From: a virus | IMG/VR virus record: IMGVR_UViG_3300037504_000631 | Coordinates: 1-40,899 of that record | DNA length: 40,899 nucleotides | Reading direction: 5' to 3' (one strand) | Part shown: in pieces, positions 1,129 to 17,812 of the stretch | How positions within the stretch are numbered: position 1 is the stretch's first letter | How the letters are laid out: every line of letters begins with the position of its first letter | Program-made: the position numbers and the translations under genes | The notes under the pieces: model-generated | Seen by the model: only the letters and a program-made list of their open reading frames with translations | Databases searched by the model: none | Told to the model about the DNA's origin: nothing

Positions 1129-1509
1129 ATGGCTGACGGACTCACAGCGAAGCAGATCGGAGCAATCAACGCGCTTTTGACGGCGCCAAGCGTAGAGGAA
1201 GCCGCTCGGCAGGCCGGTTGTGGTGCGCGCTCTATCCGGCGCTGGCTGCAACAAGCGCCGTTCCAGGCCGAGCTACAACGGCGCCAGGACGAGCTCTGGG
1301 GCGCCGTCAAACGCCGCTTGACGCGCCATTCCCTGGACGCCGTCGAGGCACTGCACTCCGTCGCCACCGCCGAGCAGTCGGCGGACGGTGCGCGCGTCAG
1401 CGCCGCCGCGAAGCTACTCGAGTTGGCGCGCGGGCTCGTGGCCGACGACTTGGACGCTCGGGTTGCGCGGCTCGAGGAAGCGCTGAACAAGGAAGGAAGC
1501 GAACAATGA
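1129..1509 (+). CDS. HTH protein, paralogue of the gene at 10715
   Basis: A 126-residue protein; GAGGTG lies just before the ATG. Residues 5-40 (LTAKQIGAINALLTAPSVEE then AARQAGCGARSIRRWLQ) form a helix-turn-helix of the type seen in phage small-terminase-like and regulatory proteins. The rest is predicted helical (ELQRRQDELWGAVKRRL). The protein at 10715-11110 has the same layout and many identical residues (AIxALLxAPS, SxIRRW, ELWxxxxRxL, DDLxxRVxxLE). It is therefore the left member of a duplicated module, but outside the near-identical part. The stop overlaps the ATG of the next gene. Confidence 0.7.
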   Translation: MADGLTAKQIGAINALLTAPSVEEAARQAGCGARSIRRWLQQAPFQAELQRRQDELWGAVKRRLTRHSLDAVEALHSVATAEQSADGARVSAAAKLLELARGLVADDLDARVARLEEALNKEGSEQ

Positions 1510-2108
1510 CTCAACGAAAACTGCAACGGCGTGTCGCAGCGCTCGAGGCAAAAGCCGCCGAACGCCAGCACGACCCCCGACCACCGACCGTCGCCGAGCT
1601 GCCTGGCCTGCACCCGGACGAGGCCAACGAGCTCGCTGGCATGTTGGCGCGGCCGATTGAACGACTCGACGGCTTCGAGCTGTGTCGGCTGATGTTCCTG
1701 CATCGCGCGGTGGGGCCCTCGGCGCAGGACGCTCCCGCCAGCGAATGTGGAGACGAGCTCGGGCACCCGTTCAACCAATGCACTTCGCGGGCCTGCTATC
1801 GCGCTCACCTTGGCGACCCTGTCCCAGGCACCGACTGTCCTGCCGATCCGCTCTCCCTGCTCACCGAAGGTGAGCGCCAGCGTTTGGCCAAAATCTCGAC
1901 AGAAAACCCAGCCACCGACGTCCGCGTGCTGCTGCAGCAAGCCATGGCCAGCCGTGACGGCAAGGTCACGGAATCGCTCAGCTTCATGGGCAGCCCAGGC
2001 AGCGGAACGTATCAGCTTCAACACCTTCTCGCCAAAGCATGGCATCGATACCGAACCGGCGGGCTTCCCGCCGCAACCGTGTCAGATTTGACACACAAAG
2101 GAGAATGA
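1506..2108 (+). CDS. conserved protein of the duplicated module, left copy
   Basis: A 200-residue protein starting at ATG 1506, overlapping the stop of the HTH gene (ATGA). The N-terminus is a short coiled-coil-like stretch (RRVAALEAKAAERQ). I do not recognise the family. It is homologous over its whole length to the product of 11100-11714, but the DNA is a mosaic: nearly identical around 1536-1745, clearly diverged around 1750-1955, and identical from 1956 to the end. This patchwork points to recombination between the copies. Its last codons carry the palindrome at 2079-2094. Confidence 0.65.
   Translation: MTQRKLQRRVAALEAKAAERQHDPRPPTVAELPGLHPDEANELAGMLARPIERLDGFELCRLMFLHRAVGPSAQDAPASECGDELGHPFNQCTSRACYRAHLGDPVPGTDCPADPLSLLTEGERQRLAKISTENPATDVRVLLQQAMASRDGKVTESLSFMGSPGSGTYQLQHLLAKAWHRYRTGGLPAATVSDLTHKGE
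2079..2094. promoter_or_regulatory. palindrome GTGTCA-N4-TGACAC (operator-like)
   Basis: A perfect 6-bp inverted repeat with a 4-base spacer (gatt). It lies at the end of the 1506 gene and 15 bases before the ATG at 2110, with the AAAGGAG ribosome site between. The same arms with other spacers occur at 11685-11700 (duplicate) and twice before the prohead protease gene (25620-25635, 25649-25664). Repressor-binding site is the simplest reading; a short RNA hairpin is the alternative. Confidence 0.5.
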
Positions 2109-2109
2109 C

Positions 2110-2538
2110 ATGTCCGATTACTACGACAAGCAGCTTCGTTTTGCGCTGTTGGATGTCCGGGGCCGCTGCACCTCGGAACCGAGCGAATGGCGAGGCTTCT
2201 CCATCGTTCATCTTGATGACGGCCTGGGGCCTTGCCAGGTTCCGACAGAGAGCGCCTACCGCAAGCTCTCCGCGCTCGAAACACAGGTTCGCCAGGCCGG
2301 TGGGCACTTCATCGCCGCGGCCGACGCTCGCAGGGTCCTCGAGAAGTTGCCGCACGCTCCGCCACAGGCTCGAGACGACGGCTCGAGGTTCCGCGTCGCC
2401 AGCGGCAGGATCACTGGTGTCCGCCGCGACGGCGCGGACGCACCCAGGCCGGCGCCTCAGCAGCGGCGAGACTTTTCGAACATCCCATCCCCGAGCATCG
2501 ATGAAGCTCGCCGCAAGATCGACCGCTACGGTCTCTGA
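2110..2538 (+). CDS. protein with a scaffold-like C-terminal motif, left copy
   Basis: A 142-residue protein with a good ribosome site (AAAGGAG). I do not recognise the body (SDYYDKQLRFALLDVRGRC). The last 25 residues contain RRDFSNIPSPSIDEARRK, very close to the C-terminal RRVDYSDIPAPSIDDAARK of the phage prohead protease/scaffold at 25668-26903. Both genes also carry the GTGTCA-N4-TGACAC palindrome just upstream. The protein from the second copy (11716-12144) is identical. A capsid-associated or capsid-interfering role is a reasonable guess, not shown by the sequence. Confidence 0.7.
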   Translation: MSDYYDKQLRFALLDVRGRCTSEPSEWRGFSIVHLDDGLGPCQVPTESAYRKLSALETQVRQAGGHFIAAADARRVLEKLPHAPPQARDDGSRFRVASGRITGVRRDGADAPRPAPQQRRDFSNIPSPSIDEARRKIDRYGL

Positions 2539-2557
2539 TCTAGCCAACCACGTTGTC

Positions 2558-2591
2558 GGTGTGCCGGCACGATCTGGCCCAACGGCACACC
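2558..2591. other. 9-bp inverted repeat in the intergenic gap
   Basis: GGTGTGCCG at 2558-2566 pairs perfectly with CGGCACACC at 2583-2591 across a 16-base loop. It fills most of the 104-base gap between 2538 and 2643. No T-run follows, so it is not a classical terminator. GATCTGGCC occurs in the loop and again at about 2628, a short direct repeat. The same structure is present at 12164-12197 in the second copy. Confidence 0.5.
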
Positions 2592-2642
2592 TCCCGCGAC
2601 CGTAACACCCTGTAACGGCCTGCTCAGGATCTGGCCTATTTC

Positions 2643-2801
2643 ATGCGTCCCCCGCCGCCAGAGGACCAGTGGCTCACCATCGGCGACGCACTGGCTCGAG
2701 GCGACCGGCGCGTCTACATCGACAGCCCCGGCTGGTATCCGGAGCTCGAGCACGAGCAGCCAACTCCCTGGCGGCTCAGCGAGCTCGAGGACGACGAGTG
2801 A
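2643..2801 (+). CDS. small acidic protein, left copy
   Basis: A 52-residue ORF from ATG 2643 to TGA 2799-2801, rich in Pro, Asp, Glu and Trp (MRPPPPEDQWLTIGDALARG, ending WRLSELEDDE). There is no obvious ribosome site. The stop overlaps a GTG (GTGA at 2799) that would start the ParB-like reading frame. It is preserved exactly in the second copy at 12249-12407. I do not recognise it; the in-frame stop position and coupling to the next start make it a plausible real gene. Confidence 0.45.
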   Translation: MRPPPPEDQWLTIGDALARGDRRVYIDSPGWYPELEHEQPTPWRLSELEDDE

Positions 2802-3700
2802 CCACGGCGGAACCTACGCCCGTCGCTGATTCGGGGGCGGATCTACAACCGGGCGAAGCGGAAGCGTGGTGGTGATCGGAAATCAAACCCTCAAAGTGAG
2901 GGTTTGAACCAGGGTAACACCGCCAAACGCCTCGCCAACGACCTCGGTGTCTCCCGCGCCACCATCGAACGCGACGGCGCCTACGCCGAGCTCGGGGGCC
3001 GCAACCTCTCGCCGGATCAGCTCGCAGAAATCAGGGGGCGCATCTACAACCGGGCGAAGCGGAAGCGTGGTGGCACCGGCGCCAACCAGCACACCGAGCA
3101 GCGGTGCCACAGTGACACCGCTGCACCAGAACGGACGCGCGAACGTCTCGCTGAAGACCTTGGGGTGTCTCCAAGAACCTTGGCACGGGACGGAGAGTAC
3201 GCCGATGCCGTCGAGGAACTCGCCGAAGATGTGGCGCCGGAGCTACCCCCGACCAGGCCGCGCTGATCCGGGGCCGCATCTACAACCGGGCGAAGCGGCA
3301 GGGGGCGAGAACCGACCTAACCTCTCCTCAAAGTGAGGAGAGGTCGCGCACGTCTGAACGCCTCGCCAGCGACCTCGGTGTCTCCCGCGCCACCCTCGAA
3401 CGCGACGGCGCCTACGCTCAGGCCGTCGAGGAGCTCGCTGAGGAGGTGGCGCCGGAGTTGCCGGAGCAGGTGGCGTGGATTCGGGGGCGCACCTACAACC
3501 GGGCGAAGCGGAAGCGTGGTGGCACCGGCGCCAACCAGCACACCGAGCAAATCCCTCAAAGTGAGGGAACAGCGAAGGGGCCAACCGCCGAACGCCTCGC
3601 CAACGACCTCGGTGTCTCACCACGCACCCTGAAGAACGACGGCGCCTACGCCCAGGCCGTCGAGGGGCGCTCAGGAGGGCCACAGCGCCGGAGCAACCAA
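2800..3700 (+). pseudogene. decayed tandem ParB-tail units (left copy)
   Basis: The reading frame begins at GTG 2800 (MTTAEPTPVADS) but shifts frame almost at once. What follows are four units of the segment downstream of the nuclease domain in ParB-like proteins: (L)IRGRIYNRAKRKRGG, a variable linker, then ERLANDLGVSRATIERDGAY. Units 1 and 2 (about 2824-3266) are in one frame and stop at TGA 3264-3266. Units 3 and 4 (about 3240-3690) are in another frame. No ParB catalytic domain is present. The ORF 2904-3266 (TTG start) could still make a small HTH protein. Deletions and slippage between repeats probably produced this; a chain of small HTH domains in use is the alternative. Confidence 0.6.
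2883..3568 (+). repeat. four different palindromes at the same place in the ParB-tail units
   Basis: Each unit has an inverted repeat in the linker between NRAKRKRGG and the HTH: 2883-2907 (11-bp arms TCAAACCCTCA/TGAGGGTTTGA, loop AAG), 3098-3124 (9-bp arms GCAGCGGTG/CACCGCTGC), 3320-3344 (11-bp arms ACCTCTCCTCA/TGAGGAGAGGT, loop AAG) and 3552-3568 (7-bp arms TCCCTCA/TGAGGGA, loop AAG). The arms differ in sequence but remain complementary. The first three are also in the second copy at +9606. Confidence 0.75.
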
Positions 3701-3848
3701 GCCGAGGGAGAAGCTGAGCCGGGGGGGCAGCAACGCCGACGGGGAGCGCCGGCCAGCTCCCACCAGCGAAGCCGAGGTGTGTCACTTCGGCGCCGTCGGA
3801 GCCCTACGGAAGGCATCGCCGGCGATGTCGGCTCGCCATGGCTCGAAG

Positions 3849-3891
3849 GGGGTGAGCCCCCGGCGGCCCCAGGGAGCCGGGGGCTCACCCC
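3849..3891. other. 16-bp perfect hairpin (ssi-like)
   Basis: GGGGTGAGCCCCCGGC at 3849-3864 pairs with GCCGGGGGCTCACCCC at 3876-3891 across an 11-base loop. No U-tract follows, so it is not a normal terminator. Its position beside the iterons suggests a single-strand initiation or other origin structure; that is inference. Confidence 0.6.
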
Positions 3892-3894
3892 TTT

Positions 3895-3920
3895 CCCCGT
3901 AGGGTTTCCCCCCTACGGGG
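3895..3920. other. 10-bp perfect hairpin (ssi-like or terminator)
   Basis: CCCCGTAGGG at 3895-3904 pairs with CCCTACGGGG at 3911-3920 with a 6-base loop. A short T run (GTTTTG) follows on the + strand, so it may be a second origin hairpin or a rightward terminator. Confidence 0.55.
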
Positions 3921-3991
3921 GTTTTGTCGGTTTTTGGAGATTTCCGAAAAGCCTAACAATGTCAGTAGCTTAGGATCACTTTTTCAAGGGG

Positions 3992-4060
3992 CAATGTGGG
4001 GGGGGGTATTTCACAAATGTGGGGGGGGGTATTTCACAAATGTGGGGGGGGGTATTTCAC
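3992..4060. repeat. three tandem 23-bp iterons
   Basis: Three head-to-tail units at 3992-4014, 4015-4037 and 4038-4060. Each is AATGT, nine G, then TATTTCAC; the first differs only in its first base. The exact 23-bp period (TATTTCAC at 4007, 4030 and 4053) and the position beside an initiator-like gene are typical of iterons. Confidence 0.8.
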
Positions 4061-4067
4061 CGCGAGC

Positions 4068-5819
4068 TCACCCCTTGGGGCGCCTTCCGGCCTTGCGTAT
4101 CCGCTCCCATGCTTCGATGTATCCCTCCGGCGGGAGGGGCTTGAACTTGCCCCGCTCTGCCCGTTCCAACCTGATCAGCCCGTGCTGTTCGGCGAGGCAT
4201 TCAAGGTCGTTCATGACCAATTTACGAGCATTGGACGTTGCCTTCCTGGCCGTTGTCCCACCCTTTCGGGCTCCGGTCTGGCCTTGGAGGTACTCCACAG
4301 CCGAGGGGGACAGGGTGTTGACCATGGCTCCCCAATCCTCCGGCTTGAAGGCAGGGAGCGCCGCGGGGTTGAACCGCCCATCCGTCCCTGGCAGGTAGGA
4401 AGCGTTCCAGGCCGCGCAAGCTCGGATGTAGTGCCGAAGCAATTGAGGCTTTCGGTTGTCGAGGCCGAGGGCTCCCGTCAGGTTGACGAGAAATTCGCCA
4501 GCATATCGTCCTCGGGTGAAGTCCGGCCATGCCCGCTCGAATGCCTTGGAGAAGCCGAGCCAGATCTGAGCGTCGGGCTCCGGGCTTCCGTCGGGGCGCC
4601 GGGCTACCCTGGCCGTGACTTCGAAAACGCGGGGCATGTTCAAGGCTTCGGGGTTGTAGATATGGAGCCCTCCCATCTCTTCCGCCGCTTCGACAACGCG
4701 GTTTCGTGCCGGGGGCTGGATTCTTTGGGCGTTGGGGTAGAGGGCTCGGGCGAGCTCGTCAACGGTTACACGGACCAGCCCTCCCCCGAGAACACGCGGA
4801 TCCGCCATGGCCAGCAACATGAGCTTGCTTGCCAGGGGGGAGAGCAGCCCTCCGGCGGAGGCTTCGGTCATGGCCACGGGGAGGGGCTGTTCGCCCTGCC
4901 CCAAGCCCAGGGGGAGAGAGGATTGGTGAGGCCGCTTGCGCCACCCCCCGGTGATCAGGGGGTGAGACTTCGGGAGTAGGGCCACCCCTTCGGCGATGTC
5001 ACGGGCCAGCTCGGGGGCCACCCCGTAGCGTTCCCCGTCTTGCACGATGGCTTCGAGGCAATCTCCGGCTTCGAGGCAACCTCCGCCCCAAGCCCAGCTC
5101 ACCGGAGCGACAACCTTGGGCACCTTGGCCATGCCGTCGGTTGTGATCGGTTGCAGGGTCGGGGCTTCGAGCTGGGGGCGTACCCTGTCGTGCCAAAGCA
5201 CCGTGGCCAGCGCCAACATGAACCGGATCGTTTCCCCGCCTTCGGTGAGCCCGTTCCACCAGCTCCAAAGGGGGGCTTCGTCGTCGGTTTCGAGGTATGC
5301 TCGCCAGCGCTCCGCCGCCTTGACTCGAAGCGCACTGGCGTACCTCGCTCCCAATTCCCCGAGCCCTTCCAGGTAGCTCGCCGCTCGAGCGTCCCATGCG
5401 AGCATGGGGGGATCCCCCTCGGCTTCGCTGGGTATGGCCGGTGAGTCATGGGTCAGCTCTGGGTCAACGCAGTCCACCAGCTCGGGGAGCGCTTCAACCA
5501 GCGCTCGGGCCAGCTTGTCTTGGACTTCGACGGCTTCGTTTTGGCCTTGGAGCGCCAGCGCCGTGGCCCAATGGTGAGGGTTGTAGGGGTTGGGCCAGCG
5601 CATAAGAAAGAGGTTGCGACGGGCGCGCAAACTAGGGTGTTTTGACCTGTCTCTCGATTCGGCGGTAACCTCACCTATGCGTTTTAACCTGTAAGAAAGC
5701 TCACCGAAGGTCAGCTTTTCAAAGGTTTCTGGTTTGCCTTCGAGATTGGCTACTTTGACGAGAAACTCTGCTATCCCTTCCGCCATTGCTCTTTCATCGT
5801 CTGTTTCCCAGGTCATCAC
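4068..5819 (-). CDS. replication initiator-like protein
   Basis: A 583-residue protein, last gene of the leftward replication operon. The start overlaps the helicase stop by 4 bases. Residues around 330-370 (LASKLMLLAMADPR then VTVDELARALYP) look like a winged-helix segment of plasmid initiators. The C-terminal part (GQTGARKGGTTARKA, then RLERAERGKFKPLP) is basic and suits DNA binding. The three iterons lie immediately beyond its stop codon. I infer that it binds the iterons and recruits the helicase and primase, as RepC does in IncQ plasmids. It is larger than a typical RepC, and the family is not certain from sequence alone. Confidence 0.6.
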   Translation of the reverse strand: MMTWETDDERAMAEGIAEFLVKVANLEGKPETFEKLTFGELSYRLKRIGEVTAESRDRSKHPSLRARRNLFLMRWPNPYNPHHWATALALQGQNEAVEVQDKLARALVEALPELVDCVDPELTHDSPAIPSEAEGDPPMLAWDARAASYLEGLGELGARYASALRVKAAERWRAYLETDDEAPLWSWWNGLTEGGETIRFMLALATVLWHDRVRPQLEAPTLQPITTDGMAKVPKVVAPVSWAWGGGCLEAGDCLEAIVQDGERYGVAPELARDIAEGVALLPKSHPLITGGWRKRPHQSSLPLGLGQGEQPLPVAMTEASAGGLLSPLASKLMLLAMADPRVLGGGLVRVTVDELARALYPNAQRIQPPARNRVVEAAEEMGGLHIYNPEALNMPRVFEVTARVARRPDGSPEPDAQIWLGFSKAFERAWPDFTRGRYAGEFLVNLTGALGLDNRKPQLLRHYIRACAAWNASYLPGTDGRFNPAALPAFKPEDWGAMVNTLSPSAVEYLQGQTGARKGGTTARKATSNARKLVMNDLECLAEQHGLIRLERAERGKFKPLPPEGYIEAWERIRKAGRRPKG

Positions 5820-7270
5820 ACCAGCTCCGGGTCAACATCCGGCTTCGCATTCGTCTTGCCCTTGGTGGACTTGCTCAACTCCGATACCGCTCGAGCCAGC
5901 TCCCTTCCAACCCTCCGCCGGTTTTCCGCTTCGGCATTGGTGACAGGGTAAAGGCGTTGACGCGCTGGCCACCAGTCGAAGCGGGGCTCCGGGGCTTCGT
6001 CGCCCCCGGTGTTTCGACCATGGCGGTTGTAGGCAACAGTGATCTCGAGCTCGACGCGATCCCGCCGGAGGGCTTCGCTGTAGGCGTTGCACTCCCCCTC
6101 GGCTTCGCTCGCCAGCGCCGCCCCCTTCCCGTTGCCTCCGGCTCGAGCGGCGTTGATGGCGGAGCCCTTCGGCTGGTCCAGCACGAACACCCCTGACAGC
6201 TCATGGGCCAGGTGGTAGCTCCCTCGGAGTACAGCCGTTGCCATGTCGTCCCCTTCCTTTTGAGCGTCACCTTTCGCGGTGTGCTTCGTTGCGTCACTGG
6301 TGAGCAGAGTTACCCAAGCGCCGGCTTGCCCCGTCGTCTCCCCCGTCGTCCATTCCCGGATCGTTGCAGCGAACGCCGACAGCGCCTTGACCTCGTTGTC
6401 CATGTCGGGCTGGAACCGTTGCGCCGGATCGATCACGAGCACGGGCACAACCTCTCGGCCGTAACGCTTCCCGAGCCGGGCTCGCCAGCGCTCGACATAG
6501 GCCCCGAGCTTCCAGGCCGGCCCGGTCCCCTCTCGTGCGACGGCTCCGGGAATCTGGAGCATGTGGCCGTTTCGGGCTTCGGCCATGAGGCCGGCTCCGA
6601 GGGCTCCCCGAGCTCGCTCCCACGCGGCGTTGATGTCCTCCGCCTTGTCCGGCCCCGCCCCCTTCAAGGCCGTTCGGCCAGCTCGGAACCAACCGGCGGA
6701 TCCTTCAGTCCAGCGAGCGAGCCAGCGCCGCGTCAATGCGTCCGCGGGCATTTCGGAGACAACGACAACCGGAGTCAGTGCTGGGCCATAGAGCCCGAGG
6801 TTGTCCGCCGCGGCTTGGATCACAGATTGCTCGGGCTTGGCCAGCCCCTCCCCGAGCCGGGCCAGCCCTTCGGCTCCGAGCGCTACCGCGGCGGAGCGAA
6901 GGGCGAGCCCTTCGGCCAGTTGCATCAAGAACGCTGTCTTGCCCGCCTTCGCCTTCGCCGCCCCAATGACGTACATCTCGCCGGGGGCGAAGCCGCCCCC
7001 CAAGTAGCTCTCGAGAGCTTCCCCGAGCCCGTGACCCGTGGCCATGGGGGTCCCGTTCGAAGGGGGCCAAGCGGGCCACGGGGGGAGCTTGGCGAAGCCG
7101 ATCAGCTCCCGCTCCCTGTCTCGGTCGAGCTGGGCCAGCGCGTACAGGGAGCCCATGGCCCAGTTGTCGAGGTCGGGGTCCAGCTCGGAGCCCACCTTCA
7201 CCGGCTCCGCCCCCTCAGTCGACGGGGGGCGCCCCTCTTGTGCTCGAGCGTTCCAATCGGTTGCAGTCAC
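5816..7270 (-). CDS. DnaB/RepA-like replicative helicase
   Basis: A 484-residue RecA-fold ATPase. Walker A is GAAKAKAGKT (residues 103-112) and Walker B is VLVID (277-281). VVVSEMPADALTRRWLA (from about 169) matches the DnaB 'SLEM' motif carrying the catalytic Glu, and TSDATKH (about 327) sits at the sensor/H4 position. There is no DnaB N-terminal domain, so it is of the short RepA or gp4-helicase type. It starts at GTG 7270, overlapping the primase stop by 4 bases, and overlaps the initiator start by 4. In the operon it would unwind the element's DNA. Confidence 0.8.
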   Translation of the reverse strand: MTATDWNARAQEGRPPSTEGAEPVKVGSELDPDLDNWAMGSLYALAQLDRDRERELIGFAKLPPWPAWPPSNGTPMATGHGLGEALESYLGGGFAPGEMYVIGAAKAKAGKTAFLMQLAEGLALRSAAVALGAEGLARLGEGLAKPEQSVIQAAADNLGLYGPALTPVVVVSEMPADALTRRWLARWTEGSAGWFRAGRTALKGAGPDKAEDINAAWERARGALGAGLMAEARNGHMLQIPGAVAREGTGPAWKLGAYVERWRARLGKRYGREVVPVLVIDPAQRFQPDMDNEVKALSAFAATIREWTTGETTGQAGAWVTLLTSDATKHTAKGDAQKEGDDMATAVLRGSYHLAHELSGVFVLDQPKGSAINAARAGGNGKGAALASEAEGECNAYSEALRRDRVELEITVAYNRHGRNTGGDEAPEPRFDWWPARQRLYPVTNAEAENRRRVGRELARAVSELSKSTKGKTNAKPDVDPELV

Positions 7271-8388
7271 GGTTTCAGCACCTTCGCTTCCAGCTCGCCG
7301 GCCCGGAGTCGAGGGGCCAGCGCGTCAAGTATCCGGGCGGTGTACCGCTCCGCCGCGGTCGGGCTCCCGTCGCCCTTCGGCTCGTCTCTCTGTTCGGCGA
7401 TCACAACCTCGGAGCCCCTCGGGAGCTTCGCCACCAGCTCCGGGGGGAGCGCTCCGTTGAACAGCCCGAGGCAGGCCGGCCCGTGTCCGCTGTCCATGAG
7501 CGCTTCCGGCCCCGTCGCCCATGTGAGCCAGTCGGGCTCACCCTCCGCCAGCACAACCCGGAGCGCCACGTCAGTATCCCACCAGCTCGGGAGCCCCCCG
7601 CCGGCAAGGACCTGGCGAGCCAGCCCGTCCGCCAGCACAAGGCCCTTTCGAGCGAAGCCCGCCGGGGCAAGGCTTTTCGGCTCCGCCGGCCCGACAGCTC
7701 GGGCGATCAGAGATCGCAGCTCGCCCGAGGGGCTCCACAGGGGACAGAGCAGGCGGTGTCCGGTTTCGAGCCAGCTCCCCCGCGCCCCCCCGGCCCAGCT
7801 CGGGAGGGGGGAGCCGGGGGGCAGGGCTCGGGCAAGGTCCGCCGCGGCAACCTCGGAGGGCTCGAGCGCTCGCCCCTCGAGATAGGCGTTGACCTCGCCG
7901 TCGCCGTCAACCGGCCCAGAACGCCCCCAGAGCGCCGCAACCTCGCCGGGGGGCGGATAGACGGGCTCGGGCTCGGGAGGGCTCACAGCGCGTCTCAGGG
8001 GGGCAGGTGAGCTCACAGCTCCGCCCCCTCGCCGGGGGGCTCCCCCTTCGAGCTCGGGCCAGCGGTCGGCGTACCAGCCCCGGACCAGCTCCAGGTCGCC
8101 TCGGCCCAGCTCCGGGAGCCGCTGGCCGGTGAGCCCGACGGCTACCAAGTCGAGGCCATCGCCCCCGGCTTCGCACTGGTGACAGCGCCACCCCGAGCCG
8201 TTGCCGGTGAGCCCGACGGCCCCCCGCTTGTCCTTGCGCTTGTTGTGGCGGGTTGCAGCTCCACAGGCCGGGCACGAGTAGGTTGGACGGCCCGAGGCAG
8301 GCCGGCCCGGCTCGAGCCCGAGGGCTTCGGCCACGTCCCCGAGGGGGATCGCTCGAGCCCCTTCGAGCCAGCTCCGCCGACGGACCAT
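7267..8388 (-). CDS. primase with CHC2-type zinc finger and Toprim-like domain
   Basis: A 373-residue protein from ATG 8388, which overlaps the upstream stop (TGATG). A Cys4 zinc-ribbon (C39, C42, C69, C72: CPAC and CHQC) followed by GGDGLDLV is the CHC2-type zinc domain of DnaG-like primases. Further on, VVLAEGEPDWLTW fits the Toprim acidic motif (EG.PD). The middle is Pro- and Gly-rich. It probably primes replication together with the helicase; the pairing resembles IncQ RepB'-RepA or T7 gp4 split into two genes. The frame is open to 8490, but the overlapping ATG is the better start. Confidence 0.8.
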   Translation of the reverse strand: MVRRRSWLEGARAIPLGDVAEALGLEPGRPASGRPTYSCPACGAATRHNKRKDKRGAVGLTGNGSGWRCHQCEAGGDGLDLVAVGLTGQRLPELGRGDLELVRGWYADRWPELEGGAPRRGGGAVSSPAPLRRAVSPPEPEPVYPPPGEVAALWGRSGPVDGDGEVNAYLEGRALEPSEVAAADLARALPPGSPLPSWAGGARGSWLETGHRLLCPLWSPSGELRSLIARAVGPAEPKSLAPAGFARKGLVLADGLARQVLAGGGLPSWWDTDVALRVVLAEGEPDWLTWATGPEALMDSGHGPACLGLFNGALPPELVAKLPRGSEVVIAEQRDEPKGDGSPTAAERYTARILDALAPRLRAGELEAKVLKP

Positions 8389-8840
8389 CACGCGGCCCAC
8401 CCCAGCAAGACCGGCGCCGCAGTCCTGACCAGCTCGCGAACCACCGCGACATCTCCGGGGGAGAGGGCCACGGTCCCAGCGGCTCGCCACTCCCCCCGGT
8501 CCTTGGCGCCGAGGGAGAGCATGATCCGGCCTTCACCGCCAGGGCGCATCTTGAGCGCCTTGACCACCTGGCCCTTGGTGCTGGTTCCAGCGCCGGGGTC
8601 ATGCACGATGGCCACCTCGGCTCCGTCGAGTCCCTCGAGAATCTGGCCCAGCTCGCCGGGGGCGAGGGCGAGGCGGAGGGCTCCCCGCCACTCGAAGCCC
8701 TCCCGCGAACCTTGGGCGATGCTCAGGTAGAGGCGGCCGGGCTCGAGATAGGTTCCGCCTTCGGCGGGGCGAGGTCGAGAAAGGGACAGCTCCAGCGCCA
8801 GCTCTCGCCGATAGACCCGGAAGTTGGATGGCGCTGGCAT
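8388..8840 (-). CDS. unknown protein of the replication operon
   Basis: A 150-residue protein from ATG 8840, preceded by GGGGGAG. It is mostly predicted beta-strand with alternating hydrophobic residues (LYLSIAQGS, IMLSLGAKD) and ends VRTAAPVLLGWAA. I do not recognise the family. Its place between a regulator and the primase, with a TGATG coupling to the primase, suggests a replication accessory such as a single-strand binding protein, but no motif proves it. The frame is open to 8954, which would overlap the upstream gene. Confidence 0.6.
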   Translation of the reverse strand: MPAPSNFRVYRRELALELSLSRPRPAEGGTYLEPGRLYLSIAQGSREGFEWRGALRLALAPGELGQILEGLDGAEVAIVHDPGAGTSTKGQVVKALKMRPGGEGRIMLSLGAKDRGEWRAAGTVALSPGDVAVVRELVRTAAPVLLGWAA

Positions 8841-8905
8841 GGGCTCCCCCGTCGGGCCGGCCCGAGCTCGCCGGCCCCCGGCTCCGAGGGCTCCGGCTCG
8901 GGGTG

Positions 8906-9127
8906 TCACTTCGCCCCCCGCTTGCGCCGCTTGGAGCCCTTGGCCGTCCCGCATTCCGCCTCGAGAGATTCGAGCCCGCGCATCATGGCGAGCCGGAAAA
9001 CTAGCGCCTTGGATATGCGGCCCATGACATGGGCTCCGGGCTTCGCCTTCATTGCGTCCGCTACCGCTTGAGCTCGATCATGTATTTCGTCCAGGAATTT
9101 CAGAGTGATAGGCCGTTCACCGTCCAT
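8906..9127 (-). CDS. small ribbon-helix-helix-like regulator
   Basis: A 73-residue protein from ATG 9127 with a strong ribosome site (CAGGAGGTTGCCTC). PITLKFLDEIHDRAQAVADA followed by SKALVFRLAMMRGLESLE fits a short strand plus two helices, as in ribbon-helix-helix repressors; the tail is Lys/Arg-rich (KGSKRRKRGAK). First gene of the leftward operon, in the place that the small repressor gene repF holds in IncQ rep operons. Autoregulation of the operon is inference. Confidence 0.6.
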   Translation of the reverse strand: MDGERPITLKFLDEIHDRAQAVADAMKAKPGAHVMGRISKALVFRLAMMRGLESLEAECGTAKGSKRRKRGAK

Positions 9128-9147
9128 GAGGCAACCTCCTGAACGCA

Positions 9148-9176
9148 AGTATAACGTAGCTCGCTTTCAATATCTA
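9148..9176 (-). promoter_or_regulatory. candidate promoter of the leftward replication operon
   Basis: On the minus strand TATACT (9153-9148) is a good -10 element, 17 bases from TAGATA (9176-9171), a weak -35. It sits 21 bases before the start of the small regulator gene, in a visibly AT-rich stretch. Confidence 0.35.
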
Positions 9177-9188
9177 AAAAAAGAGCAC

Positions 9189-9254
9189 ACCTTAGCTTTT
9201 TCTTGCAAGTGCTCAACCCCCTGTGCTAAGGTTCGATAAGCAACGTTATCGAAC
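9189..9254. other. inverted-repeat cluster, candidate recombination site
   Basis: GTTCGATAA (9231-9239) and TTATCGAAC (9246-9254) are perfect 9-bp arms around a 6-base centre, the geometry of a tyrosine-recombinase core site. A second pair, ACCTTAGC (9189-9196) and GCTAAGGT (9225-9232), abuts it. The cluster lies between the divergent replication operon and the gene preceding the tyrosine recombinase. It could be a dimer-resolution or integration core, or an operator for the divergent promoters. Confidence 0.5.
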
Positions 9255-9270
9255 TCTAGGGAGGGGTAAC

Positions 9271-9501
9271 GTGAACATCTTGAACGACGTCATCGACCGG
9301 CTCGCCCATGACTGCGCCGTCGCCGCTCGCCTGCCCTACGGCAAGGCGGTCCCCATCGCCCTCGAGGAATCCCTGGCAGAGCCCGACGAGAGGGCCTGGG
9401 ATGCCTTGCGGCGATGGCTCGAGCGAGCTCCGACCGAAGATGAGCGAGCTCGCTTCCGTGGAACATTCCGCCGAACGATGGGGTGGCTTTGCCGTGGCTG
9501 A
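9271..9501 (+). CDS. small protein preceding the recombinase
   Basis: A 76-residue protein from GTG 9271, with GGGAGGGG as ribosome site. NILNDVIDRLAHDCAVAARL then WDALRRWLERAPTEDERARF is predicted helical. I do not recognise it. Its 3' end overlaps the recombinase reading frame. It is the first rightward gene opposite the replication operon, so an excisionase or regulator role is possible but unproven. Confidence 0.6.
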   Translation: MNILNDVIDRLAHDCAVAARLPYGKAVPIALEESLAEPDERAWDALRRWLERAPTEDERARFRGTFRRTMGWLCRG

Positions 9502-10459
9502 CGCAATCGTCCCGAAAGAGCAGGCCAGTCTTGCCGAACTCCAAGAGCTGGCGGAGCGGGCCATGGCACACGCCGAGGGGGCTCTGGCGGCAAACTCTCG
9601 GCGTGCCTACTCCCGCCACTGGCAGGGCTTCACGTCATGGTGCGAGGGCCACGGGCTTGACCCGCTCCCGGCTGACGGTCGGACTGTGGCGTTGTGGCTG
9701 ACCGAGCTCGCCTCCGAGGGCCTGTCGGTCGCCACCATGGCCCAAGCGCTGGCAGCGGTGGCGAGGGCTCACCGGGCCGCAGAACTCCCGCCTCCGAGCG
9801 GTCGAGCCCTCGAGGACACGTGGGCAGGCATTCGGCGAGAGCTCGGCGTCGCACCGAACCGAAAGGCTCCCCTCTTGACCGACGACCTGGCCAGGGCCCT
9901 CGAGGCCATCGACGGCGATAGCATGATTGAGCTCCGCGACCGGGCCCTCTTGCTCGTCGGCTTCGGGGGAGCTCTGCGCCGAAGCGAGCTCGCGGCCCTC
10001 GAGGTGAGAGACCTATCCTTCGAGGCCGAAGGCGTCGCGTTCCACCTCAGGCGCTCCAAAACCGACCAAGAGGGGCAGGGCCGAGACGTGGGAATCCCCC
10101 ATCGGCTCGGCAAGGGGCTCCATCCCGTCCAGGCTCTTCGGCGCTGGCTCGAAGCCGCGGGCATTGATGAGGGCCCGGTGTTCCGGCGAGTCGACCGCCA
10201 CGGCAATGTGGGGATCTCCCCCCTGCGAACGCAGAGCATCGCCAAGGTCGTCAAGCGTCGGGCCGCCGCTGTGGGGCTCGACCCTGCGAACGTCTCCGGC
10301 CATAGCCTTCGAGCTGGACTGGTGACCAGCGCCGCCAAGGTCGGCAAGCCGCTCCCGGCCATCATGGCGCAGACCGGCCACCGCAACGTGGGCACGGTTC
10401 AGGGCTACATCCGAAGGGCCACTCTGTTCGAGGACAACGCGGCCGAAGGGCTCCGATAA
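9440..10459 (+). CDS. tyrosine recombinase / integrase
   Basis: A 339-residue protein from ATG 9440; GTG 9494 (MADAIVPKEQ), overlapping the upstream stop, is an equally plausible start giving 321 residues. The N-terminal SAM-like DNA-binding domain includes LAANSRRAYSRHWQGFTSWC (about 49-68). All catalytic residues are visible: R180 (GALRRSEL), K207 (RRSKTDQ), H288 and R291 (GHSLR), H314 (TGHRN) and Y323 (QGYIRRA). It is the XerD-like type common on plasmids and integrated elements. It probably acts on the inverted repeat at 9231-9254, resolving multimers or integrating the element. Confidence 0.85.
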   Translation: MSELASVEHSAERWGGFAVADAIVPKEQASLAELQELAERAMAHAEGALAANSRRAYSRHWQGFTSWCEGHGLDPLPADGRTVALWLTELASEGLSVATMAQALAAVARAHRAAELPPPSGRALEDTWAGIRRELGVAPNRKAPLLTDDLARALEAIDGDSMIELRDRALLLVGFGGALRRSELAALEVRDLSFEAEGVAFHLRRSKTDQEGQGRDVGIPHRLGKGLHPVQALRRWLEAAGIDEGPVFRRVDRHGNVGISPLRTQSIAKVVKRRAAAVGLDPANVSGHSLRAGLVTSAAKVGKPLPAIMAQTGHRNVGTVQGYIRRATLFEDNAAEGLR

Positions 10460-10499
10460 CGGCTTTCCCTTGGCACAGCATGAAAGGTAGCGCTCGTAC

Positions 10500-10718
10500 A
10501 TGAGAGATCTAAAAGACACCGCCGACGAGCTCACCCTCAAAGGTAGAGAGCTGGCCACCAAAGCAATCGTCCAAGCGAGCACGGCTGCTCAGCCAATGCT
10601 TTGTGCACGTTACGGTCATCGTGTTCGCATCGAAGAGGTGGACGGTCTTTGCGCGACGTTGGTCGAAATCGGCCGGGAACATTCCCAGCCTATCCGACTC
10701 GGAGGCGAGCGCCGGTGA
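10500..10718 (+). CDS. small protein of unknown function
   Basis: A 72-residue protein from ATG 10500. The first half is helical (RDLKDTADELTLKGRELATK), the second has LCARYGHRVRIEEVDGLC with two Cys. I do not recognise it. Its stop overlaps the GTG start of the HTH gene at 10715. It has no counterpart in the left copy of the module, so it appears to belong to the plasmid-like segment. Confidence 0.5.
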   Translation: MRDLKDTADELTLKGRELATKAIVQASTAAQPMLCARYGHRVRIEEVDGLCATLVEIGREHSQPIRLGGERR

Positions 10719-11110
10719 GCGAATCTGAGCGGATCAACGGCCGGCAGCGAAAGGCGATCCGGGCCCTGCTCTCGGCGCCGTCGATCGTGGCCGCGGCAGA
10801 GGCGAGCGGCATCGGCGAGTCGACGATCCGACGCTGGATCTCCGAGGACAGCACCTTCCGTAATGCCCTCCGCGAGGCCGAGCGCGAGCTGTGGGACGAC
10901 GCCAGGCGGGCGCTGAGCGCAAGGGCGGCGGCCACTGTCGAGGCGCTGGCCGCTGTCGCTGAGGACGACGGACAGCCCGGCAGCACCCGGGTACAGGCCT
11001 GCAAGGTGATCCTCGATCAACTCTCGAAGCTACATGCCGACGACCTCACCGAGCGCGTTGAAGTGCTCGAGGTGATCCTGAGAGCGGAGGAGGCGAACGA
11101 TGAACAGTAA
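10715..11110 (+). CDS. HTH protein, paralogue of the gene at 1129
   Basis: A 131-residue protein from GTG 10715 with GGAGG upstream. Residues 9-42 (RQRKAIRALLSAPSIVAAAE then GIGESTIRRWISED) are a helix-turn-helix followed by a helical region (LREAERELWDDARRALS). It aligns along its length with the 1129-1509 product, but with many substitutions. The DNA divergence here contrasts with the near-identity 0.9 kb further right. Confidence 0.7.
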   Translation: MSESERINGRQRKAIRALLSAPSIVAAAEASGIGESTIRRWISEDSTFRNALREAERELWDDARRALSARAAATVEALAAVAEDDGQPGSTRVQACKVILDQLSKLHADDLTERVEVLEVILRAEEANDEQ

Positions 11111-11714
11111 AAAGTTGATGCAACGGGTAGAACGCCTCGAGGCAAAAGCCGCCGAACGCCAGCACGACCCCCGACCACCGACCGTCGCCGAGCTGCGCGC
11201 CGCGCTGCCGGGGCTGACCGAGGACGAGGCCACCGAGCTCGCTGGCATGTTGGCGCGGCCGATTGAACGACTCGACGGCTTCGAGCTGTGTCGGCTGATG
11301 TTCCTGCATCGCGCGGTGGGTCCCTCGGCGCAGGACGCTCCCGCCAGCGAATGTGGGAATGAGCTTGGCGGCAGGTTCAACCAGCACTCTTCGCGAGCCT
11401 GCTATCGTCGCCATCTCGGTGAGCCGGTTCCGGGACGTGACTACCCTGTCGACGCGCTTGGCCTGCTCACCGAGCACGAGCGGCGGCGGCTGGACGAGAT
11501 AAAGACAGCGAACCCCGGCATCGACATCCGCGAACTGCTGCGGCAAGCCATGGCCAGCCGCGACGGCAAGGTCACGGAATCGCTCAGCTTCATGGGCAGC
11601 CCAGGCAGCGGAACGTATCAGCTTCAACACCTTCTCGCCAAAGCATGGCATCGATACCGAACCGGCGGGCTTCCCGCCGCAACCGTGTCAGATTTGACAC
11701 ACAAAGGAGAATGA
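11100..11714 (+). CDS. conserved protein of the duplicated module, right copy
   Basis: A 204-residue protein starting at ATG 11100, overlapping the upstream stop by 11 bases. It is homologous to the 1506-2108 product. The first codons differ (NSKKLMQRVERLEAKAAERQ), the middle has a 4-residue length difference (RAALPGLTEDEA versus PGLHPDEA), and the last 52 residues are identical. The function is unknown. Confidence 0.65.
   Translation: MNSKKLMQRVERLEAKAAERQHDPRPPTVAELRAALPGLTEDEATELAGMLARPIERLDGFELCRLMFLHRAVGPSAQDAPASECGNELGGRFNQHSSRACYRRHLGEPVPGRDYPVDALGLLTEHERRRLDEIKTANPGIDIRELLRQAMASRDGKVTESLSFMGSPGSGTYQLQHLLAKAWHRYRTGGLPAATVSDLTHKGE
11685..11700. promoter_or_regulatory. palindrome GTGTCA-N4-TGACAC (right copy)
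   Basis: Duplicate of the operator-like palindrome at 2079-2094, 15 bases before the ATG at 11716. Confidence 0.5.
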
Positions 11715-11715
11715 C

Positions 11716-12144
11716 ATGTCCGATTACTACGACAAGCAGCTTCGTTTTGCGCTGTTGGATGTCCGGGGCCGCTGCACCTCGGAACCGAGCGAATGGCGAG
11801 GCTTCTCCATCGTTCATCTTGATGACGGCCTGGGGCCTTGCCAGGTTCCGACAGAGAGCGCCTACCGCAAGCTCTCCGCGCTCGAAACACAGGTTCGCCA
11901 GGCCGGTGGGCACTTCATCGCCGCGGCCGACGCTCGCAGGGTCCTCGAGAAGTTGCCGCACGCTCCGCCACAGGCTCGAGACGACGGCTCGAGGTTCCGC
12001 GTCGCCAGCGGCAGGATCACTGGTGTCCGCCGCGACGGCGCGGACGCACCCAGGCCGGCGCCTCAGCAGCGGCGAGACTTTTCGAACATCCCATCCCCGA
12101 GCATCGATGAAGCTCGCCGCAAGATCGACCGCTACGGTCTCTGA
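11716..12144 (+). CDS. protein with a scaffold-like C-terminal motif, right copy
   Basis: Encodes a 142-residue protein identical to the 2110-2538 product, with the same ribosome site and upstream palindrome. The C-terminus carries FSNIPSPSIDEARRK, similar to the end of the prohead protease/scaffold at 25668. The lack of any difference between the copies indicates either a recent duplication or ongoing gene conversion. Confidence 0.7.
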   Translation: MSDYYDKQLRFALLDVRGRCTSEPSEWRGFSIVHLDDGLGPCQVPTESAYRKLSALETQVRQAGGHFIAAADARRVLEKLPHAPPQARDDGSRFRVASGRITGVRRDGADAPRPAPQQRRDFSNIPSPSIDEARRKIDRYGL

Positions 12145-12163
12145 TCTAGCCAACCACGTTGTC

Positions 12164-12197
12164 GGTGTGCCGGCACGATCTGGCCCAACGGCACACC
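12164..12197. other. 9-bp inverted repeat (right copy)
   Basis: Same structure as 2558-2591: GGTGTGCCG and CGGCACACC around a 16-base loop, in the gap after the 11716 gene. Confidence 0.5.
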
Positions 12198-12248
12198 TCC
12201 CGCGACCGTAACACCCTGTAACGGCCTGCTCAGGATCTGGCCTATTTC

Positions 12249-12407
12249 ATGCGTCCCCCGCCGCCAGAGGACCAGTGGCTCACCATCGGCGACGCACTGG
12301 CTCGAGGCGACCGGCGCGTCTACATCGACAGCCCCGGCTGGTATCCGGAGCTCGAGCACGAGCAGCCAACTCCCTGGCGGCTCAGCGAGCTCGAGGACGA
12401 CGAGTGA
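12249..12407 (+). CDS. small acidic protein, right copy
   Basis: Identical 52-residue ORF to 2643-2801, again with its TGA overlapping a GTG (GTGA) that opens the ParB-like frame. No recognisable domain. Confidence 0.45.
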   Translation: MRPPPPEDQWLTIGDALARGDRRVYIDSPGWYPELEHEQPTPWRLSELEDDE

Positions 12408-13051
12408 CCACGGCGGAACCTACGCCCGTCGCTGATTCGGGGGCGGATCTACAACCGGGCGAAGCGGAAGCGTGGTGGTGATCGGAAATCAAACCCTCAA
12501 AGTGAGGGTTTGAACCAGGGTAACACCGCCAAACGCCTCGCCAACGACCTCGGTGTCTCCCGCGCCACCATCGAACGCGACGGCGCCTACGCCGAGCTCG
12601 GGGGCCGCAACCTCTCGCCGGATCAGCTCGCAGAAATCAGGGGGCGCATCTACAACCGGGCGAAGCGGAAGCGTGGTGGCACCGGCGCCAACCAGCACAC
12701 CGAGCAGCGGTGCCACAGTGACACCGCTGCACCAGAACGGACGCGCGAACGTCTCGCTGAAGACCTTGGGGTGTCTCCAAGAACCTTGGCACGGGACGGA
12801 GAGTACGCCGATGCCGTCGAGGAACTCGCCGAAGATGTGGCGCCGGAGCTACCCCCGACCAGGCCGCGCTGATCCGGGGCCGCATCTACAACCGGGCGAA
12901 GCGGCAGGGGGCGAGAACCGACCTAACCTCTCCTCAAAGTGAGGAGAGGTCGCGCACGTCTGAACGCCTCGCCAGCGACCTCGGTGTCTCCCGCGCCACC
13001 CTCGAACGCGACGGCGCCTACGCTCAGGCCGTCGAGGAGCTCGCTGAGGAG
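12406..13051 (+). pseudogene. decayed ParB-tail units leading into the methyltransferase (right copy)
   Basis: Units 1 to 3 of the ParB-tail array, the same as 2800-3445. Units 1 and 2 share a frame and stop at TGA 12870-12872. Unit 3 is in the frame of the methyltransferase, open from about 12761 without a standard start codon until GTG 13052. I infer that the ancestral gene was one ParB-like/MT-A70 fusion starting at GTG 12406, now split by frame changes. Its N-terminal ParB nuclease domain has been lost. Confidence 0.6.
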
Positions 13052-13765
13052 GTGGCGCCGGAGTTGCCCGAGCAGGTGGCGCAGGGGACGGCGGAGCCGC
13101 GCAAGGTGGTTGTCGAAGCCGCCAAGATCGCCAAGAAAGACCCGGAGGCTGCGGCCGAGATCCTAGCAGGAAAGCGGTCGCTCCAGGCCGAGCGGGCGAA
13201 AGCCCGTAGGGCGGAGAGGATCGAGGAGATCAAGACCACCTCGGGGACGGCGGACCAGCAGCCCGGAGAAGGGAAGCTCTACCAGGTGATTCTTGCTGAT
13301 CCGCCGTGGCGGTACGAGCATGTGCGGACCGAGAGTCGGGCCGTGGAGAACCAGTACCCGACCATGACGATCGAGGAAATCGCGGGCCTTGAGGTCCCCG
13401 CCGGCGATGACGCCATCCTCTATCTTTGGGCGACGGCGCCCAAGCTCGCCGACGCGTTCGAGGTTGTCGGCTCATGGGGGTTTATTTACCGGACTTGCCT
13501 GGTCTGGGTGAAGGATCGGATCGGAATGGGGTACTATGCCCGAGGACGTCACGAACTCATTTTGATCGCGACCAGGGGAAAGATGCCGGTACCAGAGGCG
13601 GGAAACCGGCCCGATTCCGTGATTGAAGCTCCACGCCAAGAGCACAGCCGAAAGCCGGACAAGGTCTACGAGTTGATCGAGCGGTGCTACCCCGAGCTCG
13701 ACAAGATCGAGCTCTTCGCCCGCCAGCCGCGGGAGGGGTGGGCGCGCTGGGGGTACGAGGCATGA
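13052..13765 (+). CDS. MT-A70 family adenine methyltransferase
   Basis: A 237-residue protein from GTG 13052. The catalytic motif DPPW is at residues 83-86 (VILADPPWRYEH), followed by the family's typical YPTMTIEEIAGLEVPA and LYLWATAPKLADAFEVV blocks and the C-terminal KPDKVYELIERCYP and KIELFARQPREGW. MT-A70 enzymes transfer a methyl group to adenine N6, in phages usually on DNA. The first 60 residues are the tail of a ParB-like protein, and the frame continues upstream into ParB-tail unit 3. The true start may be elsewhere. Probable role: protecting phage DNA or regulating by methylation. Confidence 0.85.
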   Translation: MAPELPEQVAQGTAEPRKVVVEAAKIAKKDPEAAAEILAGKRSLQAERAKARRAERIEEIKTTSGTADQQPGEGKLYQVILADPPWRYEHVRTESRAVENQYPTMTIEEIAGLEVPAGDDAILYLWATAPKLADAFEVVGSWGFIYRTCLVWVKDRIGMGYYARGRHELILIATRGKMPVPEAGNRPDSVIEAPRQEHSRKPDKVYELIERCYPELDKIELFARQPREGWARWGYEA

Positions 13766-14313
13766 CCGTCCACGACTTCGGCCGTTCTCTCGAGTGGTCT
13801 CACTCCATGGAAGACGCTCCGTGGTGGGAGCTGGTATACCGCGCCGCGTTTCCGACGATGACCACATACGTATCGGTTAGAGGGGATGGGTGGGCGCAGC
13901 GAGGTGGCATTGATCGACTTGTCGTTCTTGGCTCGGGACGGGTCATCATGATCGACGAAAAAGTACGGTCAAAGGACTATGGAGACATCTTCCTGGAGGT
14001 CTGGTCAGATGCCGAGCGCAAAGTGCCTGGATGGGCGATGAAGGATCTGGCATGCGACTACGTGGCCTACGCCTTTGAGCCGTCGGCGACCTGCTATCTC
14101 TTGCCGTTTCTAGACCTTCGCAGGGCGCTTGGGCTGAACAAGCACCGATGGGGGACGATGGCACGCAAGGGCGAAGCAGGCTTTTCAGTGAGACGGGCAG
14201 AGAATCGGACCAACGGGCGGAGTTGGACAACAGTCGGGGTCTGCGTTCCGATCAACGAGCTACTCGCCGCGATACGAGACGCTCTGGTTATTCAGTGGGG
14301 GGAGCAACGATGA
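13762..14313 (+). CDS. PD-(D/E)XK nuclease-like protein
   Basis: A 183-residue protein from ATG 13762, overlapping the methyltransferase stop (ATGA). QRGGIDRLVVLGSGRVIMID followed by EKVR matches the D...(D/E)xK core of this nuclease fold, with IFLEVWSDAERKVPGW and a helical region after it. Proteins with this layout occur in phages near methyltransferase genes. It could be a recombination or host-DNA-degrading nuclease; substrate and role are not evident. Its stop overlaps the next ATG. Confidence 0.6.
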   Translation: MTVHDFGRSLEWSHSMEDAPWWELVYRAAFPTMTTYVSVRGDGWAQRGGIDRLVVLGSGRVIMIDEKVRSKDYGDIFLEVWSDAERKVPGWAMKDLACDYVAYAFEPSATCYLLPFLDLRRALGLNKHRWGTMARKGEAGFSVRRAENRTNGRSWTTVGVCVPINELLAAIRDALVIQWGEQR

Positions 14314-14354
14314 CCCAGCTCGACCTCTATGGCCGCCCCGGACGGGTGAGGTGA
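14310..14354 (+). CDS. 14-residue peptide, MTQLDLYG type
   Basis: ATG 14310 overlaps the stop of the nuclease-like gene, and the frame ends at TGA 14352-14354 (MTQLDLYGRPGRVR). The start of the gene at 14815 is almost the same (MTKLDLYGLPGE) and also overlaps an upstream stop. The repetition suggests a copied translated leader or a truncated relative of that gene. Confidence 0.35.
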   Translation: MTQLDLYGRPGRVR

Positions 14355-14356
14355 AC

Positions 14357-14818
14357 ATGAACATATGGGACGAGGTGAGCATCCACGAGGCCATGGAGTT
14401 GGGGCTCCAGGTGATCGATCCGACGAGGGACTGGCGGTGCCGGACCGAATGCGTCGAATGTGGCGACTACATCCCGTCGTGGCAGCGCTCGCCGAGGTGT
14501 GACCTATGCAGGGAGCTGCGACGGAGGGAGGTATCCCGCCAGAGAAGCCGCCGGAGCTACCGGCGCATGACCGAGGATGAGGATCGCATGGATCGCCGGA
14601 GGGCCTATCGCCGGAGGTGGTGGCGAGAGCGACACCCTGTCCCTGTGTGCGAGGACTGCGGGGAGCGGCCGGCCACGAGTCGGCATTCGCCGCGATGCGC
14701 AGCCTGTCGTGTTACACACCGCCGGCGGCAGAACGCACGGCGGCAGCGAAAATACAAGCAACGCAAGCGCGAGATGCACGCCAGGTCGCACGAAGCGATC
14801 GCGGAGGACAACTCATGA
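14357..14818 (+). CDS. double zinc-ribbon, Arg-rich protein
   Basis: A 153-residue protein from ATG 14357 (GTG 14351 is an alternative), with GAGGTG just upstream. There are two CxxC...CxxC modules: CVECGDY with CDLCREL near 35-55, and CEDCGER with CAACRVT near 100-120, each followed by a very basic segment. It looks like an HNH-type or zinc-ribbon nucleic-acid-binding protein, but I see no HNH catalytic motif. The function is unknown. The stop overlaps the next ATG. Confidence 0.6.
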   Translation: MNIWDEVSIHEAMELGLQVIDPTRDWRCRTECVECGDYIPSWQRSPRCDLCRELRRREVSRQRSRRSYRRMTEDEDRMDRRRAYRRRWWRERHPVPVCEDCGERPATSRHSPRCAACRVTHRRRQNARRQRKYKQRKREMHARSHEAIAEDNS

Positions 14819-15009
14819 CCAAGCTCGACCTCTACGGCCTCCCCGGCGAGCTGGCAGGTCGTCGAGACGCGCGGGCTCGGGCCGGGGCGACCGGCCCCGT
14901 CGTCGCGAAGCTCCGCGTGGTGCGCTCGACGCTGGTCGTCATGCCGACTGCACCGGTGGAACGCAGGTTTTCGTCGCGCTGTCCGGGCTCGCGAAAGGCC
15001 GCGTGCTGA
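14815..15009 (+). CDS. small basic protein with MTKLDLYG start
   Basis: A 64-residue protein from ATG 14815, overlapping the upstream stop. It opens MTKLDLYGLPGE, nearly the same as the short peptide at 14310, and continues with a basic stretch ending CPGSRKAAC. I do not recognise it. The LDLYG opening appears as a separate shuffled piece in two places 0.5 kb apart. Confidence 0.45.
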   Translation: MTKLDLYGLPGELAGRRDARARAGATGPVVAKLRVVRSTLVVMPTAPVERRFSSRCPGSRKAAC

Positions 15010-15037
15010 TGCTTGCCCACTGCGACGAGCGTTTGGG

Positions 15038-15072
15038 CAGAAAAGCCAGCCATGGGGCTTGGTGCCATGGAC
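15038..15072. repeat. CCATGG hairpin repeat, copy 1
   Basis: CAGAAAAGCCAGCCATGGGG followed by CTTGGTGCCATGGAC, matching the copies near 24849-25551. It lies in the gap between 15009 and 15093. CCATGG occurs twice, and AAGCC can pair with GGCTT. Confidence 0.7.
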
Positions 15073-15092
15073 GACGACGACGGAGGGGTAGA

Positions 15093-15194
15093 ATGAAAAG
15101 AGTCATTCGGGAGCGGGAGCGGATCTGGTTCTCGCCCCATTGTCTATCGCCTGAGTCGCAACCAGAGCAACTGCCACTAGGAGGAGTTGATTGA
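15093..15194 (+). CDS. 33-residue peptide gene
   Basis: ATG 15093 follows CGGAGGGGTAGA, a strong ribosome site. The frame encodes KRVIRERERIWFSPHCLSPE and ends at TGA 15192-15194. It has no recognisable domain; the ribosome site is the main support. Confidence 0.4.
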   Translation: MKRVIRERERIWFSPHCLSPESQPEQLPLGGVD

Positions 15195-15226
15195 TCTTCT
15201 ACAAAATTCGTGGCAAACTCTAACAA

Positions 15227-17746: not shown

Positions 17747-17762
17747 GTTACCTCCTGTTGTA

Positions 17763-17791: not shown

Positions 17792-17812
17792 GGGTTTTCG
17801 TAGGTGCCTCCC

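Follow-up and report, generated by a model that had tools for sequence, protein, structure and literature searches.

Islands of the SaPI type carry a recombinase, a primase, replication genes, iterons and terS in about 10 kb, and RSF1010/IncQ-like plasmids encode their initiator, helicase and primase together. In SPP1, a theta plasmid is transduced at 8.2e-8, but at 4.5e-4 once it carries 1340 bp of phage homology, and a phage-plasmid chimera was proposed, though not detected, as the intermediate (PMC5615212). In Marinitoga piezophila the plasmid pMP1, 13.3 kb long and with no virion genes, occupies up to 70% of MPV1 capsids after induction; the role of terS in phage-inducible chromosomal islands (PICIs) is described in the same work (PMC11921389). 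For phage-plasmids, gene exchange by homologous recombination has been proposed (PMC10879196).

In this work we describe a stretch of viral DNA in which a plasmid-like replicon stands among the genes of a tailed phage. The arrangement is real and unusual, and it belongs to the already known recombination between phages and plasmids. It resembles homology-facilitated plasmid transduction (SPP1, P22, T4) in that the replicon shares about 1.3-1.5 kb with the phage; whereas the SPP1 work used phage DNA cloned into plasmids, the homology here is a natural mosaic module beside a terS-like gene, known from sequence alone. As with pMP1 and MPV1 (PMC11921389), a small plasmid that encodes DNA-processing but no virion proteins would ride with a tailed phage, but whilst no terS homologue was found in pMP1 and its packaging was demonstrated, the replicon described here has a terS-like gene and a long block shared with the phage, and its packaging is predicted. 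The likeness to SaPI-type islands lies in a recombinase, primase, replication genes, iterons and a terS-like gene within about 10 kb. Set against the definition of PICIs, an integrase, a primase/Rep and a terS-like gene indeed lie within about 10-15 kb with no virion structural genes among them, but the flanks are phage genes and not a chromosomal att site, and profile searches recognised no PICI-type repressor, capsid-remodelling or packaging-interference genes in the replicon. Plasmid replication and virion genes on one sequence are what phage-plasmids also show, except that the plasmid part here lies between exact 1.5-kb direct repeats, from which it could be released whole. Iterons with a presumed initiator, a helicase and a primase recall RSF1010/IncQ-like plasmids, to which no sequence similarity was found and to whose gene set the replicon adds a Whirly-type single-stranded DNA (ssDNA) binder; no mobilisation genes were recognised in the replicon.

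Results

The window, i.e. the whole stretch of DNA analysed, is the entire virus record IMGVR_UViG_3300037504_000631 (40,899 bp, class 'linear'). No end repeats occur in its 40,899 bp, and the record is probably a partial phage genome. The phage genes on its left include a sigma-region-4-like gene, the terS-like gene and gene X, and its right part, of contractile-tailed type, also has recognisable genes for the small and large terminase subunits, head proteins, protease and capsid. No replication operon was recognised by PHROGs and Pfam matches in the phage part of this probably partial genome. The features, from left to right, are:

1129..1509, + strand: terS-like helix-turn-helix (HTH) gene, phage side (terminase small subunit PHROGs, 4.6e-5 and 8.1e-5)
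1506..2108, + strand: gene X, phage side (200 aa, no assigned function; 3' part inside the exact repeat)
1542..1955, no strand: mosaic left flank, homologous to 11136-11561 (base-by-base alignment)
1956..3462, no strand: exact repeat, copy 1 (end of gene X, a 142-aa gene, three HTH units with palindromes)
3463..3700, + strand: extra degenerate HTH units, replicon side only, similar to the units in the repeat
3845..3925, + strand: strong, terminator-like double hairpin (-68.9 kcal/mol, z -6.0) between the HTH array and the iterons
3894-3921: terminator-like site within the double hairpin
3993..4060, no strand: iterons, three perfect copies of the 23-bp AATGTGGGGGGGGGTATTTCACA (Tandem Repeats Finder, period 23, 100%)
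4068..5819, - strand: presumed replication initiator, Rep (583 aa; judged from its place within the operon and next to the iterons)
5816..7270, - strand: DnaB/RecA-fold replicative helicase (phrog_19, 1.3e-7; DnaB_C, 0.0028)
7267..8490, - strand: primase with zinc ribbon (Zn_Ribbon_Prim, 6.7e-4; PHROG primase, 6.3e-5)
8415..8840, - strand: Whirly-type ssDNA-binding protein (PF08536, 4e-10, over the cut-off; PDB 4kop WHY2, 1.2e-4)
8906..9148, - strand: 80-aa open reading frame, first gene of the operon (about 73 aa from an ATG near 9127; reading frame and position)
9271..9501, + strand: 76-aa regulator- or antitoxin-like protein (PSK_trans_fac, 4.5e-4, below the cut-off)
9308..10459, + strand: tyrosine recombinase (Phage_integrase, 2.2e-15; probable start near 9497)
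10715..11110, + strand: terS-like HTH gene, replicon side (terminase small subunit PHROGs, 3.6e-7, 1.8e-6 and 8.5e-5)
11100..11714, + strand: gene X, replicon side (204 aa)
11562..13068, no strand: exact repeat, copy 2 (0 mismatches to 1956-3462)
13052..13765, + strand: MT-A70 DNA methyltransferase, phage side (MT-A70, 8.4e-25; the last HTH unit of the repeat is in frame with it)
13069..40899, + strand: phage body with ParB-like, terminase, portal, head, sheath, tape measure and baseplate genes (PHROGs matches)

The first-pass annotation had reported two segments matching at an offset of 9606 bp, and they do so without a single mismatch over 1507 bp, the first differences falling at 1955 and 3463. 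Such a direct repeat is far above chance or the usual background; elsewhere, in 29 loci of 4-21 kb each from viral and genome collections, the longest exact direct repeat is 54 bp. One copy adjoins the replicon and the other the phage genes, as had been claimed: copy 1 is followed by the degenerate HTH units and hairpins, whilst the phage copy runs in frame into the methyltransferase. Direct repeats thus stand around a complete replicon (repeat, gene matches, iterons), as in a single-crossover cointegrate. Excised on paper, the replicon comprises 3463-13068 (9606 bp) and the phage segment 1-3462 plus 13069 onward (31,293 bp). The prediction that recombination between the repeats would free a 9.6-kb circle, with one module in each product, agrees with the continuity of the genes in both products, which read X-142-HTH-methyltransferase in the resolved phage and X'-142-HTH array-hairpins-iterons in the resolved circle. 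Integration by the tyrosine recombinase was considered as the source of the repeats and rejected, because att repeats are short and the repeat here is 1.5 kb of mostly coding sequence.

The putative iteron origin, the five-gene replication operon and the tyrosine recombinase said to lie between the repeats are all present, on the evidence of the three perfect iterons and the gene matches, with Rep presumed from its position. The operon is read on the minus strand, starting at about 9127 and ending at 4068, opposite to the phage genes. The iterons adjoin the gene of the 583-aa protein, which is presumed to be the initiator by position only; it has no family match in Pfam and PHROG profile searches, nor has the 80-aa reading frame in profile searches. 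A 72-aa gene (+) lies between the recombinase and the replicon-side terS-like gene. The replicon can probably replicate itself from the iterons, since it encodes a presumed initiator as well as a helicase, a primase and an ssDNA binder of its own. A Whirly-domain ssDNA binder thus sits in a plasmid-like replication operon; the domain is best known from plant organelles. Single-sequence fold models were unusable (pLDDT 39.6 for Rep, 57.8 for X).

That none of these genes is typical of this phage type, as the same annotation held, went too far for the recombinase, to which proteins in 14 viral contigs are related at 36-49% identity; in those 14 contigs tblastn found none of the other replicon genes. 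A search of 50,697 phage and 72,556 plasmid records gave no relatives of Rep, helicase or primase, and IMG/VR contigs gave none at close range for these three, X or the iterons; a Rep fragment matched nothing in GTDB contigs, nor did the helicase in 398 genomes from a single phylum. The collections searched also gave no circular relative, no phage with an empty site and no second integrated copy. These negatives are weak, since pattern scans see only close relatives. The terminase has relatives in genome contigs that are 27-36% identical and name no host. Compared with the phage structural genes, codon usage deviates in Rep (z 5.6) and helicase (z 3.6). Composition was set aside as proof of foreign origin because it gives no clean split: the phage's own early genes deviate too (z 6.8), and the recombinase does not.

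The block shared by phage and replicon (terS-like gene, X, the 142-aa gene and the HTH array) extends to the left beyond the exact repeat in a diverged and mosaic form. The two terS-like copies (1129-1509 and 10715-11110) have 38% amino acid and about 49% DNA identity, and the two X proteins 82% amino acid identity overall and 76% over residues 1-155, ahead of the repeat. Base by base within gene X, ahead of the repeat, 1542-1602 is identical (61 bp), 1628-1750 has one mismatch (about 123 bp), 1751-1936 is about 67% identical (186 bp) and 1937-1954 is identical again, after which the exact repeat begins. To the right of the repeat, homology stops after 13 bp and the sequences beyond are unrelated. 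Near-total identity, third codon positions included, beside tracts of 67% points to separate exchange tracts and not to protein constraint, although constraint at the DNA level is possible. Because the homology outside the repeat is diverged and mosaic, two lineages of one gene block seem to have met and exchanged pieces more than once. The terS-like match on both versions of the block suggests that the replicon has a packaging-type gene of its own; small HTH proteins, it should be said, often look like terS without being terS.

Some further observations concern the HTH array (2803-3700, 12409-13068), which shifts reading frame between units. No ATG, GTG or TTG start lies in the methyltransferase frame upstream of the GTG at 13052. 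A decayed gene, a programmed frameshift and a sequence error are all candidate explanations. Each unit has a palindrome inside its coding sequence (2884-2908, 3099-3126, 3319-3343 and 3551-3568, the first three also in the copies at +9606), of which TCAAACCCTCAAAGTGAGGGTTTGA, encoding PQSE, is an example; the stems vary in sequence between units yet stay paired around a 3-base loop, with fold z-scores from -3.5 to -4.5. To the left of the shared block, a separate gene at 364-756 (+) encodes a protein whose N-terminal domain resembles the HTH units (54-67% amino acid identity over 33-69 residues).

The phage body has peculiarities of its own. A truncated PD-(D/E)XK exonuclease, of which just the first residues are present (PDDEXK_1, 8.7e-6, profile positions 1-27 of 247), lies among the structural genes at 24669-24827 (+), and a second recombination scar and a join are candidate explanations for it. 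An element of 38-41 bp, TCAGAAAAGCCAGCCATGGGGCTTTGTGCCATGG, is dispersed in four copies (15032, 24845, 24921 and 25511) that are 85-97% alike. Beside the baseplate genes, where the GC content is lower (49% over 39001-40000), stands a glycosyltransferase-like gene at 39646-40362 (+). In the viral contig with the closest terminase relative (L006), an unrelated promoter-like direct repeat lies downstream of the head genes.

The contig and a 9606-bp circle plus the 31,293-bp phage segment have the same set of words at all lengths tested from 31 to 1508 bp, and differ first at 1509. Short reads and ordinary read pairs therefore cannot separate the fused from the separate state, and fragments of at least 1509 bp are needed to see the fused form across a repeat. 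An assembler passing a loop once would output exactly such a contig. In the near-identical tracts beside the repeat 2 of 196 bases differ (about 1%), whilst the repeat has 0 differences in 1507 where about 15 would be expected, and its exact identity may be the assembly consensus of two merged versions. Although virion genes and plasmid replication genes share one contig, as they do in phage-plasmids, the word sets fit two molecules equally well.

Discussion

The main rival to a separable replicon is that the operon and the recombinase are the phage's own lysogeny/replication region, as in an ordinary phage-plasmid, and that the flanking block goes back to an old duplication within the genome, with its middle part later homogenised by gene conversion. 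The 31 kb of phage sequence have no other visible replication or integration genes, relatives of the recombinase occur in viral contigs and its codon usage is phage-like, and the mosaic tracts could reflect repeated gene conversion inside one genome. On the other hand, the operon runs against the phage genes, a duplication that left the terS-like copies so different would be very old, and an essential module framed by exact direct repeats of 1.5 kb would be prone to deletion. Long exact direct repeats in such a place should be lost by recombination, which makes a stable resident essential module of 8 kb less likely, and we regard this explanation as rather unlikely. A recent tandem duplication of a 9.6-kb unit would give the constant offset of 9606, but also two copies alike over the full unit, whereas the left flank is homologous but mosaic and strongly diverged (the terS-like copies have only about 49% DNA identity) and the right flank unrelated beyond 13 bp. 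The diverged homologous flanks argue against any simple or recent duplication, and the recent one was rejected as very improbable, which leaves only an ancient duplication followed by conversion.

The contig might also be an assembly chimera of two related phages that have the 1507 bp in common, in which case neither a plasmid nor a biological circle would be involved. Sequence common to co-occurring relatives is a documented cause of chimeric contigs (PMC7299287), the excess of identity in the repeat over the neighbouring tracts is what a consensus collapse would give, and up to 1508 bp the word sets do not distinguish a fused from a separate state. Nevertheless, one and the same segment runs out of the first repeat and into the second, so that two phages would require an extra join inside 3463-11561, where no assembly seam was seen; we consider such a chimera quite unlikely.

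We lean slightly, then, towards a replicon that can separate from the phage and that has a module in common with it, exchanged between the two, seen here either fused to it or as the assembly equivalent of fusion. The parts of this reading are less probable than the whole: a circle that lived alongside the phage and was joined to it by the assembler is a tentative possibility, whilst a physically fused molecule seems somewhat doubtful. The two mobile elements would be a contractile-tailed phage and a 9606-bp replicon, each with its version of one gene block, part of which would have been exchanged recently between them. A crossover in the identical 1507 bp would fuse circle and phage, and the reverse crossover would free both. 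The single-crossover cointegrate first proposed thus stands as far as the anatomy and the diverged outer homologues go; it falls short in that a crossover alone leaves the identity of the repeats unexplained and in that fused and separate forms are the same up to 1508 bp. When diverged modules cross over, the products are two hybrids and not two identical copies, so that a recent exchange, gene conversion after the fusion, or gap repair would also be needed for 1507 identical bases; repair of a double-strand gap ending in a crossover could provide identity and fusion in one event.

From the anatomy we infer that a free circle exists and that the fusion may be physical and not an assembly path. 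Fusion, or shared homology, would let the replicon into phage particles, perhaps aided by its own terS-like gene; for such hitch-hiking the SPP1 experiments are a good precedent from the laboratory (PMC5615212). It is tempting to go further and to see in it a natural plasmid-type satellite fused to its helper phage, i.e. an iteron replicon that is autonomous, brings its own helicase, primase, ssDNA binder and terS-like gene, and whose module is kept identical by repeated exchange and whose homology is used to enter and leave particles, though we think this unlikely.

The locus also carries a caution, in that a plasmid lying between long exact repeats in a short-read contig is not evidence of fusion. 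A phage-plasmid chimera is the proposed route by which shared homology lifts plasmid transduction thousands of times (PMC5615212). If our interpretation is correct, phage and replicon would be a natural pair with an exchanged module, and plasmids would use this homology route outside the laboratory.
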